Shown: positions 36,172 to 44,108 of the stretch, in pieces
Layout: every line of letters begins with the position of its first letter
Numbering within the stretch: the stretch's first letter is position 1
Source: an uncultured Bacteriovoracaceae bacterium
GTDB lineage: Bacteria > Bdellovibrionota > Bacteriovoracia > Bacteriovoracales > Bacteriovoracaceae
NCBI GenBank assembly: GCA_937931205.1
Contig: CALHBF010000018.1
Location: forward strand, 124,001-188,000
Direction: 5' to 3'
Length of the DNA: 64,000 nt
Translations under genes and position numbers: made by a program
The notes under the pieces: generated by a model
Told to the model about the DNA's origin: nothing
Databases searched by the model: none
The model's input: only the letters and a program-made list of their open reading frames with translations

Positions 36172-37566
36172 CATTTCAATTAAACGTTTTTCAGAGATCG
36201 GAGCGTGAATAGGGTTTACGCTCTCCCCTTCTTTGAAGCGGCCACGACGCTGATTAGGAATCACATCGTGAGTGTGCATGATGTACTGTTTGAATTCACC
36301 AGAGAATGATTTCCCATAAAAAGCTTCCATCTTCGCCATGAACTCTTCTGTGAAAAGAGGTTTGAACTTATCATTGGCAAGAAGATCAGCAAGGAATGGC
36401 TTAATATCACCTAGTTTATAATTCATATGCCCGATAAAGCGGCTACCGTAATCGTAAGCATTCACGTTGGTCCAACGAGTGTAATAAGACTGGTTCCCCA
36501 TTCTTGTCTGGAAATCCAGAACAGGGAAGTTCGGGTAACCTCTATCACGCCAAGTTGCAATGGCCTCATCAATCCAACCAGCATTACCATTGGCAGGCAT
36601 TACCCCACGGCCAAAGAATGAGTGAATAAGCTCATGTCCTAGAGCACCAATGCTCGTTACTGCAGCACCAGCATACTCCATTCCACCGCCACCATTCGGG
36701 CTTTGAGCATAGATCACAAGATTAGGATGAGGGTATTTACCATAATCATTTTCAAGCTCGTTAATGATACGTGTTGTAGCAGTTTTAAACTGGGCCAGCT
36801 CTGCATCAGCGTTGGCAGAATTAAGAGTGTAAACAGTTGTAGGGATTTTGTTACCAAACTTAGAGTTGATATCAAAATTAAGAGTCTTCACACCAGCTGT
36901 CGGAGTGATGTGGAAATAAATAGAAGATGAAGTAAAGTAGTTCGGGAACTCGATCTCATAAACATTGGGAGAGATTTCTTTTTGAGTTCCGTTAGTGAAA
37001 ATTGAATGAGGAACTTTTGCTCCCACCAGATTCACAATAAACTTCATCTTGATTCTATCAAACTCAAAGTTTGTTGGCAGGTATCTTTCAAGAAGACCAC
37101 GGTTATCAATATCAGAATTCCAGAAAGCAGAACGAACTCCGCCGCCGCCGAACTGAGCAGGCACACCGCCACCGCCATAGTTCTTAGATCCAAGTGGAAC
37201 TTCAACAGTTAGCTTATGATCTCCAACTGCCACTTGCTCACTTGGAATTCTCATTTGAGTTTCGCCCTGAGGAGCTTTTACTTCCATTTCACGAACTGCT
37301 TTTCCGTTAAGAGCAATGCTTGTTGGACGTACCATCGAATCAAAAACTGGGTATCCAGCTTCTGTAGCAGTAAAATTCATATCGGCCAGAGCATGAGCTC
37401 GACCACGATTAATGTCGTAAGTGATTTGATAGGTAACTTCTTTGTAATTTACAAAGACAATCTTTTTACCAGAAGCCGTGAATGACTTCGGCTTATGGGC
37501 CTCATCATGAGAATTTGCCATAGCTAGACCTGAAGCAAGTAGCATACAACCTAGTAGTATTTTCAT
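36166..37566 (-). CDS. Exported M1-like (gluzincin) metallopeptidase
   Basis: A 466-residue protein with a signal peptide (cleavage near AMANS, residue about 18). Residues about 30-240 are beta-rich, like the N-terminal domain of M1 aminopeptidases. A GGMEYAG loop (294-300) corresponds to the M1 exopeptidase GxMEN motif, here with Tyr for Asn. Zinc ligands are HELIH (311-315) and a downstream Glu in WIDEA (Glu334). A Gly-rich loop (about 131-143) is unusual. Likely an extracytoplasmic aminopeptidase-like enzyme, but the changed exopeptidase loop makes substrate choice uncertain. GGAGGTC precedes the ATG. Confidence 0.85.
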   Translation of the reverse strand: MKILLGCMLLASGLAMANSHDEAHKPKSFTASGKKIVFVNYKEVTYQITYDINRGRAHALADMNFTATEAGYPVFDSMVRPTSIALNGKAVREMEVKAPQGETQMRIPSEQVAVGDHKLTVEVPLGSKNYGGGGVPAQFGGGGVRSAFWNSDIDNRGLLERYLPTNFEFDRIKMKFIVNLVGAKVPHSIFTNGTQKEISPNVYEIEFPNYFTSSSIYFHITPTAGVKTLNFDINSKFGNKIPTTVYTLNSANADAELAQFKTATTRIINELENDYGKYPHPNLVIYAQSPNGGGGMEYAGAAVTSIGALGHELIHSFFGRGVMPANGNAGWIDEAIATWRDRGYPNFPVLDFQTRMGNQSYYTRWTNVNAYDYGSRFIGHMNYKLGDIKPFLADLLANDKFKPLFTEEFMAKMEAFYGKSFSGEFKQYIMHTHDVIPNQRRGRFKEGESVNPIHAPISEKRLIEML

Positions 37567-37659
37567 AGTAGACCTCCAAAAATTCGGGCCATCTAAACAT
37601 GAATCCGGGTCAAATGCTACTTGTGTGATCCTAAAGAAAGGGGAAATTGTAAAAAAGAA

Positions 37660-37679
37660 AGGGCCCCGATAGGGGCCCT
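37660..37679 (-). terminator. Terminator of the topoisomerase operon
   Basis: An 8-bp GC-rich stem (AGGGCCCC / GGGGCCCT) with a 4-base loop, followed on the minus strand by TTTCTTTTTT, 7 bases after the stop at 37686. Strong intrinsic terminator. Confidence 0.92.
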
Positions 37680-37685
37680 GTGTAA

Positions 37686-39116
37686 TTATTGCCTTGTGCG
37701 AGAAGGGGCCTTTGTTTGTTTTGTTTGGGCCTTCTTCTTATCTTTTTCCTTATCATCCATAATGGCGGCCAGTTTTTTACTGACTTCAGTAAGCTCTTCA
37801 ACCAGCTTGTCTTTAATAAGCTGAGGAGATTTAAGGATCTTTTTAAACTCGTTTAATGATTTAGTATCTTCTTTAATTAACAGAAGACGCTTCTCTACTT
37901 CTTCCTTCGTCATGCGATAGATCGCCATGTCAGCAAGGTATTCAGCATAGATAAACTTCTGCTTAACAAGGTAATCAACATAATCTTTACGGTTCGCTTT
38001 CTTTTCAGCAATGGCGTAATGCTTCTCTTTAATGAAGCGAATAATCTCGTTATTCTTATCCAGACGCTCTTGGTATTCCTGAATTAATAATTCATAGCGA
38101 CGCTTTGTTACAGCAATTCGCTGAGTCGTGAAGACTTCAAGAATTTCCTCGGCCGTATGGAAAACTTTTACACCTTTCTCAGTGATAAGTGTGTAGTTTG
38201 GAACAATAGAAGAACTTACTCCCATTGTTTGCACAACTTCTTTGAGAGTCGGGTTTTGCCCTCTTTTGAAGATAAGCTCAATATTGATAGTGTTATCAAC
38301 AGATGAGTCGATATAGTCCTTAATAAAGTCATTATCCATGAACTTATTTAAGTGACGATAGATCTTAGAAGAGTCATACCCTTTCGGCACTTCAGTAATA
38401 AAGATTTTATCACCGACTTGCTTGAACTCCATACGAGTAATGATTCTTCCTTTCTCATCAACCTCAACTTCACCTGAGTAATATCTGAAATAAGGCTTAA
38501 TCTTTTTGATCTTACCAGTCTCAACAAACGAGATCATCGACTTAGCAATATCTGCATGATTAAAACTTGGAATCACAGATGAGAAACCTGTTCCAATTCC
38601 TTCTGCCCCGTTAAGAAGCATGATCGGAAGTTTTGGAAGAAGACCTACTGGCTCCATTACTTTTTCATCATAGTTAGGAACCATCTGCACTTGGTTCATA
38701 TCATCAAAGAGAAGAAGTTCTGCAACTTTACCAAGTTTAGCTTCGATGTAACGGGCAGCAGCTGCCTGAGTTTCCATTCTCTCTCCAAAATACCCTTTCT
38801 TATCAATAAGTGGATAGTTATTAGAGAAAGCATAGTCCTGAGCAAGGTTAACAATGGACTGCTCAACTGAAGCAGGGCCATGAGGGTGAAGTGTTAAAAC
38901 AAGTCCTGTAAGAGAACTCACTTTTACTAACCCTTTATTTGAATTCTTCCAAAGAGTGAAAAGAATACGGCGCTGAGAAGGCTTAAGGCCATCTTGCAGA
39001 TAAGGAATCGCTCGATCCATCAGAGTATAAATCTGATATGTTCTATATTCCTCTTTCACTAAATCGTGTAGAGGAATGGCCGCCATCGAGTGGAGTGATT
39101 GATTTTCTTTAGTCAT
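37686..39116 (-). CDS. Type IIA topoisomerase A subunit, short form without C-terminal domain
   Basis: A 476-residue breakage-reunion subunit. The catalytic pair is Arg122-Tyr123 (AARYIEAKL); Tyr forms the DNA link. The surrounding motifs are notable: SIVNLAQDYAFSNN (87-100) and LLNGAEGIGTGFSS (167-180) resemble eukaryotic and T4-type topoisomerase II (which has INGAEGIGTGWS), not the NGSSGIAVGM of GyrA/ParC. The beta-pinwheel C-terminal domain of GyrA/ParC is missing; the protein ends in a helical, Lys-rich tail, with a length like T4 gp52 (about 440). It pairs with the upstream B gene (1-base overlap, TAATG) to form the active A2B2 enzyme. It may be an extra decatenase beside gyrase. Whether standard parC exists elsewhere is unknown. 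Confidence 0.85.
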   Translation of the reverse strand: MTKENQSLHSMAAIPLHDLVKEEYRTYQIYTLMDRAIPYLQDGLKPSQRRILFTLWKNSNKGLVKVSSLTGLVLTLHPHGPASVEQSIVNLAQDYAFSNNYPLIDKKGYFGERMETQAAAARYIEAKLGKVAELLLFDDMNQVQMVPNYDEKVMEPVGLLPKLPIMLLNGAEGIGTGFSSVIPSFNHADIAKSMISFVETGKIKKIKPYFRYYSGEVEVDEKGRIITRMEFKQVGDKIFITEVPKGYDSSKIYRHLNKFMDNDFIKDYIDSSVDNTINIELIFKRGQNPTLKEVVQTMGVSSSIVPNYTLITEKGVKVFHTAEEILEVFTTQRIAVTKRRYELLIQEYQERLDKNNEIIRFIKEKHYAIAEKKANRKDYVDYLVKQKFIYAEYLADMAIYRMTKEEVEKRLLLIKEDTKSLNEFKKILKSPQLIKDKLVEELTEVSKKLAAIMDDKEKDKKKAQTKQTKAPSRTRQ

Positions 39117-41137
39117 TACGCCCTTGCCTCTTTTGCTTTATTCTTCTTATTTCCAGCAATGATGTTGTCCAGATCAACTTCCACATCCTCTGAATCAATC
39201 AGAAGATCTTTACGAAGTTGAGACTCTTTACCAAAACAAGTTTCAAGCATTGCTTTTGAAGCTTTAAGATCCTTCACCGAAATTTTAGTAAAATCACGAC
39301 GAGAAAGAACATGTTTAAAGGCTTCCTGGCTCATCTCACCAAGTCCCTTGTTTCTCATAATCTCGCGAATCTTAACATCTTTTCTGTTCTTTAATTTTTC
39401 AAGCTCATCATTTGATTCACAATAAACAGTTCCTTTATCTGTGATCACCTCAAAGAGAGGAGCTTTAGCAATCTGGATCATGCCCATATCAAACATTTCA
39501 GGCCAGAAAGTGAAGAAGAAGTTTGTTAATAGTGTGTTGATGTGACCACCGTCCACATCGGAATCCGCTAAGAATACAATCTTAGAAAATCTCAATTCTT
39601 TTGGATCAGCTTTTTGACCGATAGCAAGTCCTACTGAACTCATGATGTCAGCAAACTCTTGGTTCTCGATCACTTCTTTAATAGAGGCCTGACTTACGTT
39701 CATTGGTTTACCCTTAAGAGCAATACCACCCTGATACAATTTATCGCGGGCCGAACGAAGACCACCGATCGCTGAATCTCCCTCACAAATGAAGAGCATA
39801 CATTTTGAACGGTCACGGCGCTCGTTAGCATCAAGAAGCTTCTCAATGCGAACTTTTTTAGATTTTTTTGCGAGCTTTGAAGCATCTTTAAGATCACTGG
39901 CGCGTTGACGAGACTTCGCTCTCTCCATGATCAAATCAAGAAGCTCTTTATTCTTTCTCATGAATTTTTCAACACCATCATTCATGAAGCCTTCAATGGC
40001 CTTCTCTAAATGAGTGTCACGTACAAGCTTTCTCTTCGTCTGAGATTCAAAACGCGGATTAGGCATAACAACGCCGATAATCATCGTCATCCCTGCAAGA
40101 ATATCGTTATCAACAAGTGTTAACTTATCCTTTTTAGCAGTTCTCTCAAGTTTCTCTTTAATCGCATTGATATAAAGACGCTTAATACGGTCATGGTGGA
40201 ATCCACCATCGTATGTCGGAGTTGAGTTTACGAAAGAAATAATTCTTTCTTTCTCATCTGAGTTTTTATCAAATGTCATAGAAACGTGAAGATCAATTTT
40301 ACCTTTCACTTTCTTATTCTTAACGTTCATCGCCTCAAAAATATACTCGCTCTCTCCAAGTAATTGAGCTGATTGAGCATCAATTCTTTGTGCGAGTTCA
40401 AAGAGACCTTTCTTATAGAGATACTTCTCATCATTAAAATAAAAAGTTAGCCCTGGATTGTTATAAGCAAGATCGATGATACGCTTTCTTAAAAGCTCGC
40501 GATCAACGACTTGTGACTTATAAACTTCCTTGGCCAGAGTTAGTTCAATTTTAACTCCAGAAGGACCTTTGAACGGCTTCTCTTTACCTTTTTTAATCTG
40601 AAGAGCACCATCGATGAACTCATAAGTCTGCTCTTTCTTCGAGTTGTAATGGCGAACAGTAGCGCGATAAAGATCACTTGTTAAACAAGTGGCACTCGCC
40701 CCTAGTCCATTCTGACCAAGAGTACGGTACAAGAAGCCTTTTTCATCAACTTCTTCATCTTTAAACTTTGAACCTGTTCTAAACTCTGTATAGACGTCTT
40801 TGATTTTATTTAATGGAAAACCAATTCCGTTATCAGTAACAGTAACCAGTTTATCATCATCAGATAACGTCACACGAATTTCAGTAACGTGTCCGCGATA
40901 GAATTCATCAATACTGTTATCGAGAATCTCTTCAATGGCCTTAGATTTCGCCTGATGAAAATTAACTTTTTTAAAATCAATAGTGTCCCCAGTATAGAGG
41001 TAAGTATCGAGCTCCTCGATATCATTACTTCCGAAAACCAGTGTCACACGGTTTCGACAATGCCAGCGCTGGTCTTTGCTCTCAATAAGAGCTTCCTTGA
41101 CCTTTGCGCCACGGCGCTTCACTTCTTCAATGGCCAT
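39116..41137 (-). CDS. Type IIA topoisomerase B subunit (ATPase/TOPRIM)
   Basis: A 673-residue ATPase subunit. The GHKL ATP site shows EILDNSIDEF (Asn74), DNGIG (102-106) and GQNGLG (141-146). The transducer covers about 220-390. The TOPRIM motifs are CEGDSA (451-456, catalytic Glu452) and DSDVDGGHI (525-533). The toprim signature AGKPMN-like LKGKPMNVSQ differs from the LRGKxLNV of ParE/GyrB and resembles phage and eukaryotic enzymes. It closes the ATP-driven gate of a topoisomerase that passes one duplex through another. It overlaps the A subunit by 1 base, with translational coupling. The upstream 78 bases to the divergent START-like gene hold the promoter; no specific site is seen. Confidence 0.88.
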   Translation of the reverse strand: MAIEEVKRRGAKVKEALIESKDQRWHCRNRVTLVFGSNDIEELDTYLYTGDTIDFKKVNFHQAKSKAIEEILDNSIDEFYRGHVTEIRVTLSDDDKLVTVTDNGIGFPLNKIKDVYTEFRTGSKFKDEEVDEKGFLYRTLGQNGLGASATCLTSDLYRATVRHYNSKKEQTYEFIDGALQIKKGKEKPFKGPSGVKIELTLAKEVYKSQVVDRELLRKRIIDLAYNNPGLTFYFNDEKYLYKKGLFELAQRIDAQSAQLLGESEYIFEAMNVKNKKVKGKIDLHVSMTFDKNSDEKERIISFVNSTPTYDGGFHHDRIKRLYINAIKEKLERTAKKDKLTLVDNDILAGMTMIIGVVMPNPRFESQTKRKLVRDTHLEKAIEGFMNDGVEKFMRKNKELLDLIMERAKSRQRASDLKDASKLAKKSKKVRIEKLLDANERRDRSKCMLFICEGDSAIGGLRSARDKLYQGGIALKGKPMNVSQASIKEVIENQEFADIMSSVGLAIGQKADPKELRFSKIVFLADSDVDGGHINTLLTNFFFTFWPEMFDMGMIQIAKAPLFEVITDKGTVYCESNDELEKLKNRKDVKIREIMRNKGLGEMSQEAFKHVLSRRDFTKISVKDLKASKAMLETCFGKESQLRKDLLIDSEDVEVDLDNIIAGNKKNKAKEARA

Positions 41138-41215
41138 GGTCGTCGCTCCTTTAATGTTGCTTGCAAGAAAATCAATAGGATAAGATTAAGATTATCTAGA
41201 ACACTAGGTCAATAA

Positions 41216-41845
41216 ATGAGATCATACTTTTTTTATCTTATCTGCATCTTTTCCCTTACTTCATCTGCAAATTCATGGAGTTCCCCTCCTTTTGCCCCTC
41301 TCACCGAAGGCAACAAACAAAAAATATCCAGTGACAGAAAACTGACAGATGGCCAAATCAAGGACCTTTGGGAAGGTGATGTGCTCTCTCAAGTAAGCGT
41401 GAAAACCGAAAAAGAAACTCAAAAACTGGATCTCTGGGTCTCAGGTCTGCATCCGCAAAACTGCAAAAAGGCTTTGAGAAAAATTTCTCACTACGAGGGT
41501 TACCCTGAATTCCTAACCTTCATCAAAAAATCAGAATATGAGGAAGCCACTAAGCGCTGGCGCTTAAAACTCGATCACGCCCTGATGCCATTTCCGATGT
41601 ATCTGGACTTCAAAATGGAGCGCGTGACAAAGGAAGGAAGTTTTCCTTTTACCTTTGAGAAAGGATTCCTTTCAGGATTAGTAGGACAAGTGAAAACGCA
41701 AGAGATAGAGAAAAGATGTCAACTCACCCTTACCTCGCAATGGCAGGGTGTTAAAACAAAAATTCCTGATATTGTCTTCTCAACCTTTGTGCAGACACTC
41801 TCGGAAATGGGCCTGAAACACCTAATACGCTCAAGTATGCTTTAA
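41216..41845 (+). CDS. Exported START/SRPBCC-like protein
   Basis: A 209-residue protein with a signal peptide (hydrophobic about 4-16, cleavage near ANSW). The C-terminal 140 residues have the look of a helix-grip (SRPBCC/START) domain: strands with YEEATKRWRLKLDHALMPFPM, FSLGLVGQVK-type turns, and a long C-terminal helix (VFSTFVQTLSEMGLKHL). Exported members of this superfamily bind hydrophobic ligands. The match is by shape, not by a signature, so function is only suggested. It is divergent from the topoisomerase operon. Confidence 0.5.
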   Translation: MRSYFFYLICIFSLTSSANSWSSPPFAPLTEGNKQKISSDRKLTDGQIKDLWEGDVLSQVSVKTEKETQKLDLWVSGLHPQNCKKALRKISHYEGYPEFLTFIKKSEYEEATKRWRLKLDHALMPFPMYLDFKMERVTKEGSFPFTFEKGFLSGLVGQVKTQEIEKRCQLTLTSQWQGVKTKIPDIVFSTFVQTLSEMGLKHLIRSSML

Positions 41846-41885: not shown

Positions 41886-42326
41886 GTGCAAGTATTAAGA
41901 ATTAAAGCTATCGATACACATCCGATCCGTCACAAGATCCTTAGACCTCATGGAACCATTGAGGATTGTCGCTTTCGCGGTGATGACGATGAGCTGACAT
42001 TTCATTTAGGTGCCTTCGTCGACAATAAGCTCGTGAGTGTCGCCTCGTTCTATTTCGAAAGAAATGAAATCTTCACTGAACACCCTTACCAATTCAAATT
42101 AAGAGGCATGGCAACTCTACCGGAGTACCAGCGCCTGGGATTGAGCCAGGCACTTCTACGGACGGCATTCCCCGTCATTAAACAAAATCAATGTACTCTT
42201 CTGTGGTGTAATGCCAGAGTCTCAGCAATGGGATTTTATACAAAAGTTGGTTTCAAACCAACGGGTGAACCTTTCGATGTTCCTCAGATCGGAAAACATA
42301 TCTTGATGTCTATAACAATTGATTAG
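41886..42326 (+). CDS. GNAT-family acetyltransferase
   Basis: A 146-residue N-acetyltransferase. The acetyl-CoA binding stretch is FKLRGMATLPEYQRLGLSQALL (about 74-95), with R/Q-x-x-G-x-G/A-type turn RLGLSQ, and the C-terminal NARVSAMGFYTKVGF motif (about 114-129) is typical. Substrate unknown. The GTG start appears leaderless behind a good promoter. It lies 37 bases before argS, but argS has its own ribosome site, so co-transcription is possible. Confidence 0.82.
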   Translation: MQVLRIKAIDTHPIRHKILRPHGTIEDCRFRGDDDELTFHLGAFVDNKLVSVASFYFERNEIFTEHPYQFKLRGMATLPEYQRLGLSQALLRTAFPVIKQNQCTLLWCNARVSAMGFYTKVGFKPTGEPFDVPQIGKHILMSITID

Positions 42327-42362: not shown

Positions 42363-44108
42363 GTGTTCTTAAACCATGATCAATTTCGCAAAGAATTGGC
42401 GCTAGCAATTTCAGAAACTATTCAAAAAGCTTTCTCGCTCTCTTTTGCTAGTGAAAAAATATATTCCCTCTTTGGGCCAACTCCCTCAAAAGAAGCTGGG
42501 GATCTTTCCTTCCCGCTTTTCATTCTTGCTAAAGAGGCAAAACTCAATCCGGCCGCTGCCGCTAAAACTCTTGCAGAAACTCAAACCTCTTGGCCTGCCT
42601 TTGTTGCAAGAGTTCAGGCCCAAGGTCCTTATTTAAACTTCTTCTTAGATTTTAATACTATTGCTTCTACTCTCCTGCCGCAAATTAACTCAGGCGAATT
42701 TTTTAAAAAGCAGCTGACTCAAAATACTCCGAAAACGATGATCGAGTTCAGCCAGCCTAATACGCATAAAGAACTGCACGTAGGACATATGAGAAACCTT
42801 TGTTTAGGTGACTCACTTATCCGTCTTCACCGCTATGCTGGTTTTGATATCGTTTCGACCACTTTCCCAGGGGATGTGGGTACTCATGTGGCCAAATGCC
42901 TGTGGTTTTTAAAATACCACTACAAAGGTGAAATCCCTCAAACTCGTAAAGGGGCGTGGCTTGGAACTCTCTATACTGCCGGTAACAATCTTTTAGAAGA
43001 GCAGCGTGGAACTCCTCAGGAAGAAAAAAACCGTGAGCAGCTAACCCTCATTCTAAAGCAGCTTGAGCAAAAATCAGGCGAATACTATGACCTATGGAAA
43101 ACAACTCGTGAGTGGTCAATTGAACTCATGAACGAAGTGTACAAATGGGCCAATGTAAAATTTGATGTCTGGTACTGGGAATCTGAAGTGGACTCTGCTT
43201 CAGTAAAGCTTGCTCGTGAGTATTTTGCCAAAGGTCTTTTCATTGAAGATCAAGGCTGTGTGGGAATTGATTTATCCGAGTACAAATTAGGTTTTTGTAT
43301 GCTTCTAAAGACTGATGGTAATGGTCTTTATGCAACTAAAGATATCGAACTAGCTCGAAGAAAATTTCAAGATTTTAAAATTGAGAAGAACATCTACATC
43401 GTCGATAAGAGACAGGAACATCACTTCAAGCAAGTTTTTAAGACTCTTGAACTGATGGGCTTTGAGCAAGCGAAGGATTGCTATCATCTTCAATATGACT
43501 TCGTAGAACTTCCAGATGGGGCGATGAGCTCTCGTAAAGGAAACATCGTTCCTCTTCAGGCGCTGATTGATAACATGGTTGCCATGATTAAAGAGCAGTA
43601 TCTGTCTCGCTATACTAATGAATGGTCTAGTGAAGAAATCGAAGCCACTGCTCAAATAGTTGCCAAAGGTGCCATTAAATACGGAATGACTCGTATTGAT
43701 CCATCTAAGAAAATCGTTTTTGATATGCAGGAATGGTTAAAACTTGATGGGGAATCTGGACCATATGCTCAGTATGTTTGTGCCCGCATTAATTCTATGT
43801 TGAATAAACTGGGTACTCCGCAGAGCAGTCAAATCATCATCGAAGCCCCTCAGGAAAAAGAAATCGTGGGCCTACTGATGAACTTTAATCAGGTAGTGGA
43901 GCAGTCAACAACTCAGTATAAGCCTTCAATCCTGACTGCCTATATTTTTGAGCTAGCTCGTGCCTTCAACAGCTTCTATGCCGAGTGTCCGGTGGGACCT
44001 TCAGCTGAACCGGTGAAATCAAGCCGTATGATTCTTTCAAATGCCGTCTTGAAAACTCTCAAAACGGGATTAGAATTATTAGGAATACAGGCACCGGAGA
44101 AAATGTAG
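42363..44108 (+). CDS. argS: Arginyl-tRNA synthetase
   Basis: A 581-residue class I aminoacyl-tRNA synthetase. The HIGH motif is HVGH in KELHVGHMRN, following SQPNTHK. The KMSKS-like motif is MSSRKGN in the middle. The DALR anticodon-binding domain is at the C-terminus with AYIFELARAFNSFY and the PVGPSAE segment. The N-terminal Arg-tRNA synthetase N domain is present. It charges tRNA-Arg with arginine in the cytoplasm. The start is GTG with AAGGAAA upstream. It is followed after 1 base by an FHA gene, in the same transcription unit. Confidence 0.97.
   Translation: MFLNHDQFRKELALAISETIQKAFSLSFASEKIYSLFGPTPSKEAGDLSFPLFILAKEAKLNPAAAAKTLAETQTSWPAFVARVQAQGPYLNFFLDFNTIASTLLPQINSGEFFKKQLTQNTPKTMIEFSQPNTHKELHVGHMRNLCLGDSLIRLHRYAGFDIVSTTFPGDVGTHVAKCLWFLKYHYKGEIPQTRKGAWLGTLYTAGNNLLEEQRGTPQEEKNREQLTLILKQLEQKSGEYYDLWKTTREWSIELMNEVYKWANVKFDVWYWESEVDSASVKLAREYFAKGLFIEDQGCVGIDLSEYKLGFCMLLKTDGNGLYATKDIELARRKFQDFKIEKNIYIVDKRQEHHFKQVFKTLELMGFEQAKDCYHLQYDFVELPDGAMSSRKGNIVPLQALIDNMVAMIKEQYLSRYTNEWSSEEIEATAQIVAKGAIKYGMTRIDPSKKIVFDMQEWLKLDGESGPYAQYVCARINSMLNKLGTPQSSQIIIEAPQEKEIVGLLMNFNQVVEQSTTQYKPSILTAYIFELARAFNSFYAECPVGPSAEPVKSSRMILSNAVLKTLKTGLELLGIQAPEKM

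Follow-up and report, generated by a model that had tools for sequence, protein, structure and literature searches.

How does a bacterial chromosome come to carry, beside an ordinary gyrase, a second type IIA topoisomerase that resembles the enzymes of T4-like phages and eukaryotes, and what does that enzyme do there? The question is raised by two adjoining genes in a 64,000-nucleotide stretch of DNA (the window) from an uncultured Bacteriovoracaceae bacterium of the phylum Bdellovibrionota. The genes, called B (ATPase and TOPRIM subunit) and A (cleavage subunit) here, lie on the minus strand, B first and then A. Comparison of sequences leads us to a reading to which we give a probability of roughly 80%, namely that the pair encodes a type IIA topoisomerase of T4/eukaryote type, belongs to the core chromosomal genes of the Bacteriovoracaceae, and likely forms an ATP-driven A2B2 strand passer that would decatenate sister chromosomes and relax DNA without introducing negative supercoils.

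The hallmarks of the type IIA superfamily are all present: a GHKL ATPase, transducer and TOPRIM domain in B, the catalytic tyrosine in A, and the acidic metal triad. Pfam assigns B to HATPase_c (PF02518), DNA_gyraseB (PF00204) and Toprim (PF01751), with DNA_gyraseB_C falling below threshold, and assigns A to DNA_topoisoIV (PF00521) over residues 35–442, with no second Pfam family. We looked for a GyrA box in A and found none. B retains all equivalents of GyrB E424, D498, D500 and D502. Among the 16 Bacteriovoracaceae members compared, Arg122, Tyr123 and Ile174 of A and Glu70, Asn74, Lys368, Glu452, Asp525, Asp527 and Asp529 of B are invariant (16/16). The C-terminal end of A is basic in the family (on average 41% Lys + Arg over the last 30 residues), and the tail of B, 3–132 residues long, averages 26% Lys + Arg in 68 B proteins. 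Predicted structures match type IIA folds and leave the subfamily unassigned.

A preliminary description of this locus, made from the sequence alone, had reported an A subunit of 476 residues without the C-terminal pinwheel and a one-base overlap of the genes. Both points hold, as PF00521 extends only to residue 442 in the absence of a GyrA box, and the genes meet in a TAATG at 39116. Its statement that the TOPRIM neighbourhood of B is altered (LKGKPMNV) does not, because LKGK is also found in E. coli GyrB and ParE and the metal residues are intact. It had further ascribed the A motifs NGAEGIGTG and IVNLAQDYAFSNN to eukaryotic topoisomerase II and T4 gp52 rather than to GyrA/ParC, and here the outcome is divided. 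In our alignment, NGAEGIGTG is identical, letter for letter, to the yeast and human topoisomerase II sequences, and all GyrA rows read NGxxGIAVGM; the T4 gp52 equivalent is NGVSGIATG. The motif is therefore eukaryote-like, not T4-like.

Profile scores point away from the cellular families. Phage topoisomerase II profiles outscore the best NCBIfam gyrase or topoisomerase IV model 1.4–2 times, with 387 bits (phrog_551) versus 193 for A and 458 bits (phrog_543) versus 317 for B. Both subunits score far under every NCBIfam cut-off listed (A, 193 of 654 bits; B, 317 of 740). Against solved structures, A scores best to yeast Top2 (147 bits), followed by bacterial ParC (123) and phage gp52 (116). By BLAST, A is 28% identical to the GyrA of its own genome and 26% identical to T4 gp52. 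Among the matches listed in our protein searches (120 of 2252 and 120 of 2376), A is labelled 'DNA gyrase subunit A' in several public records and 'hypothetical protein' in others. All these pairwise identities lie in the twilight zone, and it is therefore the trees that decide.

We built trees for A (68 rows, 431 columns), for B (49 rows, 615 columns), and for A and B concatenated (43 rows, and 51 rows including 16 from jumbo phages), and repeated the analysis with only the slow half of these columns. Throughout, one side comprises gyrase, topoisomerase IV and a Firmicute phage/plasmid type, and the other the Bacteriovoracaceae pair together with eukaryotes, giant-virus-like contigs, T4-like phages and jumbo phages. 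The branch dividing the two sides is long (0.72–1.04 changes per column), with support of 100/99 to 100/100. Presupposing a root on the gyrase side, the Bacteriovoracaceae form the first branch on the T4/eukaryote side, with support of 100/96 for A, 92/78 for B, 100/98 and 100/99 for A+B, and 100/98 for the slow half. Rows from IMG/VR were thinned to 13 of 80, and jumbo-phage rows to 12 of 50 two-gene loci (among 80 loci). The 'giant-virus-like' contigs (L181, L222–L224) are so named only by their likeness to eukaryotic topoisomerase II. In the concatenated trees, human topoisomerase II is represented by the A part of TOP2B joined to the B part of TOP2A. These trees exclude rows without B and six that are long or partial (RHEph12, CampyF368, LPST94, L222, L196 and L197), and the 51-row tree also excludes four near-copies of the Bacteriovoracaceae. 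In the A tree, phages S-CBWM1 and RHEph12 fall outside the T4/eukaryote side.

Approximately unbiased (AU) tests were run for groups chosen after the first A tree had been viewed. They rejected a grouping of the Bacteriovoracaceae with GyrA/ParC (P = 1e-7), with eukaryotes (3.5e-6) and with the Firmicute-phage type (9e-66). Joining them to seven T4-like phage rows, namely phi5, Matisse and five from IMG/VR, was rejected as well (5e-99); T4 itself is represented in the A tree alone. For jumbo phages, P was 0.016 with four jumbo rows and 0.0037 with 16. On this evidence the pair is a deep lineage beyond every phage and eukaryotic clade sampled. The placement beside T4-like enzymes that had been anticipated is thus right as to the side of the tree, and wrong as to any closer grouping with T4-like phages or eukaryotes.

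Separately, we observed that two huge phages (L115 and L220; LR745206 and LR756504, ∼635 kb) and Xanthomonas phage X1 adjoin the clade of eukaryotes and giant-virus-like contigs in the concatenated trees (100/99).

Is the pair a regular part of the chromosome in this family? The genomes surveyed are grouped under codes (f1 being the family of the window), and their family and phylum names are deduced from named relatives. A was found in 102 of 115 Bacteriovoracaceae genomes, and in 68 of the 71 good ones (at least 90% complete, at most 5% contaminated). Of the 13 genomes without a match to A, five gave no match at all and eight a match to GyrA only; B was found in six of the 13, bringing the genomes with A or B to 108 of 115 (70 of the 71 good ones). 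When genome contigs were scanned with A, the best 80 of 107 relatives were 63–90% identical. Their titles name Bacteriovoracaceae, Bacteriovorax, Halobacteriovorax and other Bdellovibrionota/Oligoflexia, along with a few unspecific names of metagenome-assembled genomes. A complete same-strand B open reading frame precedes A in 75 of these 80 loci, with a gap of at most 79 bases (overlaps counted) in 73 of them. Distances between A subunits track those between GyrA subunits (over 20 genomes, Mantel r = 0.85, and 0.78 once near relatives are left out; in both cases none of 9999 permutations reached the observed value), and A evolves ∼1.35 times as fast as GyrA. Collectively, these sequence comparisons indicate that the pair is a syntenic, vertically inherited part of the core chromosomal gene set of the Bacteriovoracaceae. 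In two assemblies the A gene is interrupted by stop codons (one TAG and one TAA in G163, one TAG in G151), which could reflect decay or sequencing error.

The remaining topoisomerases of the genome and the phylum suggest what the pair may be for. In its own genome, the assembly of which is 86% complete, we found one GyrA with a GyrA box (QKRGGKG), one GyrB, the pair and one type IA enzyme, making the pair the sole type IIA enzyme found there besides gyrase and bearing out the expectation of a normal gyrase alongside it. No topoisomerase IV was found in this assembly, and no topoisomerase VI B subunit (PF09239), the A subunit of topoisomerase VI not having been searched. Our survey, which covered this phylum, counted A subunits in 144 genomes, 42 of them from Bacteriovoracaceae and 102 from other families. 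Two A subunits were seen in 40 of the 42, three in one (where gyrA is probably in pieces) and one in one, and an A subunit of T4/eukaryote type in all 42. In the other families, a single A subunit was seen in 99 of 102 genomes, two or three in the remaining three (G001, G017 and G038), and one of T4/eukaryote type in none of the 102. Searching those three genomes, two with weak matches and six more with the A of the pair returned matches 29–39% identical or none. For B-type subunits, surveyed in 88 genomes, the count was one in all 50 from other families, and two in 36 and three in two (G183 and G205) of the 38 from Bacteriovoracaceae.

The third B-type subunit of G205 (C26, 23062–23544; 100.6 bits) could be contamination (4% in that assembly) or a phage gene. 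G017, an other-family genome with 5% contamination, has three PF00521 matches, two of them in frames of 826 and 946 residues (the 946-residue frame on C83) that are 37–39% identical to the A of the pair over the first 200 residues; its extra copy may be ParC, a second GyrA or a contaminant.

A published report (PMC11302465) describes topoisomerase VI in Bdellovibrio bacteriovorus, where topoisomerase IV is lacking, and proposes that topoisomerase VI acts as the decatenase where topoisomerase IV is missing. We found the B subunit of topoisomerase VI in 96 of the 102 other-family genomes, and in 0 of the 42 Bacteriovoracaceae genomes and 0 of 13 further ones. The phylum is thus mostly without topoisomerase IV; most other families have topoisomerase VI, and the Bacteriovoracaceae have the T4/eukaryote-type enzyme instead. 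Such a pattern likely reflects an ancient replacement, in which a T4/eukaryote-type topoisomerase II would serve as the decatenase of the Bacteriovoracaceae in place of topoisomerase VI. The role would have been taken when the ancestor of the family lost topoisomerase VI, or because it never had one.

In the type IIA cycle as established, an ATP-closed dimer, cleavage by a tyrosine with TOPRIM metals, and strand passage combine to move one duplex through another. The pair would act in the same way: ATP would close the B dimer, Tyr123 of A and the TOPRIM metals of B would cut the gate DNA, and a second duplex would be passed through the cut and then released. The lysine-rich tails may hold DNA. 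As there is no wrapping pinwheel, the enzyme would be expected to relax and decatenate, not to supercoil, as do T4 and eukaryotic topoisomerase II, and supercoiling would be left to the gyrase present in the same genome.

Drug response offers a further prediction. T4 topoisomerase II is sensitive to m-AMSA. In GyrA, the residues that hold quinolones are Ser83 and Asp87. Their equivalents in A are Ala82 and Gln86, and across the Bacteriovoracaceae A/P/Q and Q/A/S/T, and because both anchor positions differ, we predict that the pair is insensitive to quinolones such as ciprofloxacin; it might respond to m-AMSA or etoposide. The GyrA of the same genome keeps Ser83 and has Gly at the Asp87 position. 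Another report (PMC12642874) gives B. stolpii as ciprofloxacin-sensitive and ascribes the reduced susceptibility of a related isolate to gyrA. This fits gyrase as the drug target and is no test of the pair itself.

Several points weigh against our assignment or against the role proposed for the pair. B keeps the KGLGEM of GyrB/ParE and, among solved structures in the Protein Data Bank (PDB), matches E. coli GyrB best, at 182 bits, with phage T6 at 141 and human topoisomerase II at 131. The AlphaFold models are middling, with mean predicted local distance difference test (pLDDT) scores of 66 and 70, and residues 34–128 of A, including the catalytic tyrosine, fall below 50. The incompleteness of the genome's own assembly must be added, as must the fact that we found no biochemistry for any member of the family. 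Six other-family genomes have neither the B subunit of topoisomerase VI nor the T4/eukaryote-type enzyme or any other second type IIA enzyme: all three of family f3 and the only one of f10 (these four measure 1.7–2.0 Mb), plus a single genome from f2 and another from f6. It follows that members of this phylum can manage with gyrase only, and a role as decatenase is not forced. The contrast between 0 of 42 and 96 of 102 genomes also does not amount to many independent tests, because the swap was probably one evolutionary event. Finally, the stem of the Bacteriovoracaceae is long (1.06–1.26 changes per column), and so the exact depth of their branch may be pulled by long-branch effects.

Could the pair be no more than an ordinary Bdellovibrionota ParC/ParE whose motifs have drifted and whose C-terminal domain was lost? 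The KGLGEM of B and its best PDB score, the records naming A a gyrase subunit, and a BLAST identity of A to its own GyrA as high as that to T4 gp52 would all suit such an origin. Against these stand the position of both subunits on the T4/eukaryote side, with support of at least 100/99, and the AU rejection of a GyrA/ParC grouping. Moreover, since 99 of the 102 other-family genomes have a single A subunit, there is hardly any ParC in the phylum to drift from. We regard drifted ParC/ParE as ruled out by the trees and the AU test, at most a very improbable account. Recent phage or prophage cargo, brought to mind by the T4-like and jumbo phages that carry the same B–A pair (adjacent or ∼1 kb apart), seems to us scarcely credible. 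The neighbouring genes are kept among related loci (counts in the table below), the pair is in nearly all Bacteriovoracaceae genomes, and its distances follow those of GyrA; cargo is ruled out by this synteny and distribution. Three pattern scans of IMG/VR, with the window protein, the family A profile and the family B profile, returned no close viral relative, although their reach is limited because each scan is seeded by only a handful of short, exactly matching patterns. Phage matches covering most of A are ∼25–31% identical among the 50 of 2165 records listed (25 of 2158 were listed for B), and the best 80 of 417 IMG/VR loci are up to 33% identical to A.

The more distant origin of the pair is harder to settle. 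The ancestor of the Bacteriovoracaceae might have acquired it from a jumbo-phage lineage near Sinorhizobium phage Phosso, Agrobacterium phage Atu_ph04 and Erwinia phage Hallingskeid, with the same function as proposed above. Those phages branch beside the Bacteriovoracaceae pair, forcing the two together costs only 12.8 and 19.4 log-likelihood units, and the long stem may draw the Bacteriovoracaceae towards the base. The AU tests speak against it (P = 0.016 and 0.0037), as does the outside position in the concatenated trees (100/98 to 100/99), a position that the slow half of the columns also gives and that B by itself supports less well (92/78). Jumbo-phage descent is therefore disfavoured by the sequences, and we think it unlikely while giving it real weight. 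The suggestion that the pair is phage-derived accordingly fails as regards close T4-like kinship, and is less likely than not for jumbo phages. A bolder idea takes the two-gene Bacteriovoracaceae enzyme for a cellular relict from the stem of the entire topoisomerase II family of T4 phages, giant viruses and eukaryotes, one that split off before all sampled viral and eukaryotic members, such that the line to eukaryotic topoisomerase II began in bacteria and was passed on via viruses; we hold this to be doubtful. As to function, the pair might be a special-purpose enzyme, for instance one that serves the multi-chromosome filament arising inside prey or that handles prey DNA, with gyrase doing general decatenation. 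Bacteriovoracaceae are known for predation, and the six genomes that seem to live on gyrase alone would agree with this. Yet the other families of the phylum, among them that of the predator Bdellovibrio, did not show the pair, its mutual exclusion with topoisomerase VI fits a housekeeping role, and A evolves at only ∼1.35 times the rate of GyrA. A special purpose thus appears improbable, and a core decatenase of T4/eukaryote type is the reading we prefer.

The features of the locus are collected in the table. The hairpin 3' of A is a weak match by itself, as three terminator-like sites were found versus 2.7 expected; its reading as a terminator is supported because it is placed after the A stop codon. 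A promoter scan of 37500–41300 found no minus-strand site upstream of B, and five sites in all versus 8.3 expected. Scans of the whole window (1–64000) gave neither a tRNA gene nor an Rfam match at the gathering threshold. The divergent gene preceding B may possibly be a functional partner of the pair or share its promoter region. Genes on the opposite flank have homologues near the pair in 12–19 of the 80 loci.

Table. Features of the topoisomerase locus, in window coordinates. Neighbour counts refer to the best 80 related loci, many of whose contigs end early.
Feature	Position	Strand	Basis or observation
B subunit, 673 residues: GHKL ATPase, transducer, TOPRIM, sub-threshold DNA_gyraseB_C, charged tail	39116..41137	-	Open reading frames, Pfam, phrog_543
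A subunit, 476 residues: cleavage core with Tyr123, without C-terminal pinwheel, short Lys-rich tail	37686..39116	-	Open reading frames, Pfam, phrog_551
TAATG: B stop and A start share base 39116	39114..39118	-	Sequence
Candidate Shine-Dalgarno-like AAAGGAG, 8 bases 5' of the B ATG	41146..41152	-	Read from sequence
Intrinsic-terminator-like hairpin (8 pairs, 7 GC) and T-run, directly 3' of A	37660..37679	-	Scan
Divergent neighbour without Pfam family	41216..41845	+	Homologue near pair in 74/80 loci
GNAT acetyltransferase	41886..42326	+	Homologue near pair in 60/80 loci
argS (arginyl-tRNA synthetase), housekeeping context	42363..44108	+	Homologue near pair in 44/80 loci

If our reading is true, an entire bacterial family relies on a topoisomerase II of eukaryote/T4 type to run its chromosomes, instead of topoisomerase IV or topoisomerase VI, a natural case of decatenase replacement inside one phylum. 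It would bring a deeply branching cellular lineage into the debate on where eukaryotic topoisomerase II came from, and these would be bacteria whose decatenase is predicted to resist quinolones and perhaps to respond to poisons of the eukaryotic enzyme.

We found no description of this enzyme among the open-licence papers listed, which is not proof of absence, and the nearest known system is the T4-type phage topoisomerase II (gp39/gp60 plus gp52; PHROG 543 and 551). Like the pair, it is a two-subunit type IIA enzyme with an A subunit lacking the pinwheel, it is the best profile match, above the cellular families, and phages X1, phi5, Matisse and LPST94 share the B–A order. Unlike it, the pair is a chromosomal core gene set rather than phage-borne, does not nest within the T4-like clade (P = 5e-99), and is only 26% identical to T4 gp52; T4 itself lacks the NGAEGIGTG and SNN motifs of A, and KGLGEM in the B of the pair is a further difference. 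Eukaryotic topoisomerase II (yeast Top2, human TOP2A/B) differs in being one chain, not two genes, and in a GGKDAA-type insert that the pair lacks, and the grouping of the two was rejected (3.5e-6). Topoisomerase IV (ParC/ParE) is likewise type IIA and likely does the same cellular job, but the pair has no C-terminal domain, lies on another branch of the tree and scores far under the ParC/ParE cut-offs. DNA gyrase shares the type IIA fold and catalytic residues and differs in its wrapping domain and GyrA box, neither of which the pair has. Topoisomerase VI of Bdellovibrio and its kin has the same proposed role as decatenase in bacteria without topoisomerase IV (PMC11302465), whereas its architecture is type IIB, the B of the pair matches PF00204 and not PF09239, and the two are distributed in opposite ways (96 of 102 other-family genomes versus 0 of 42 Bacteriovoracaceae).

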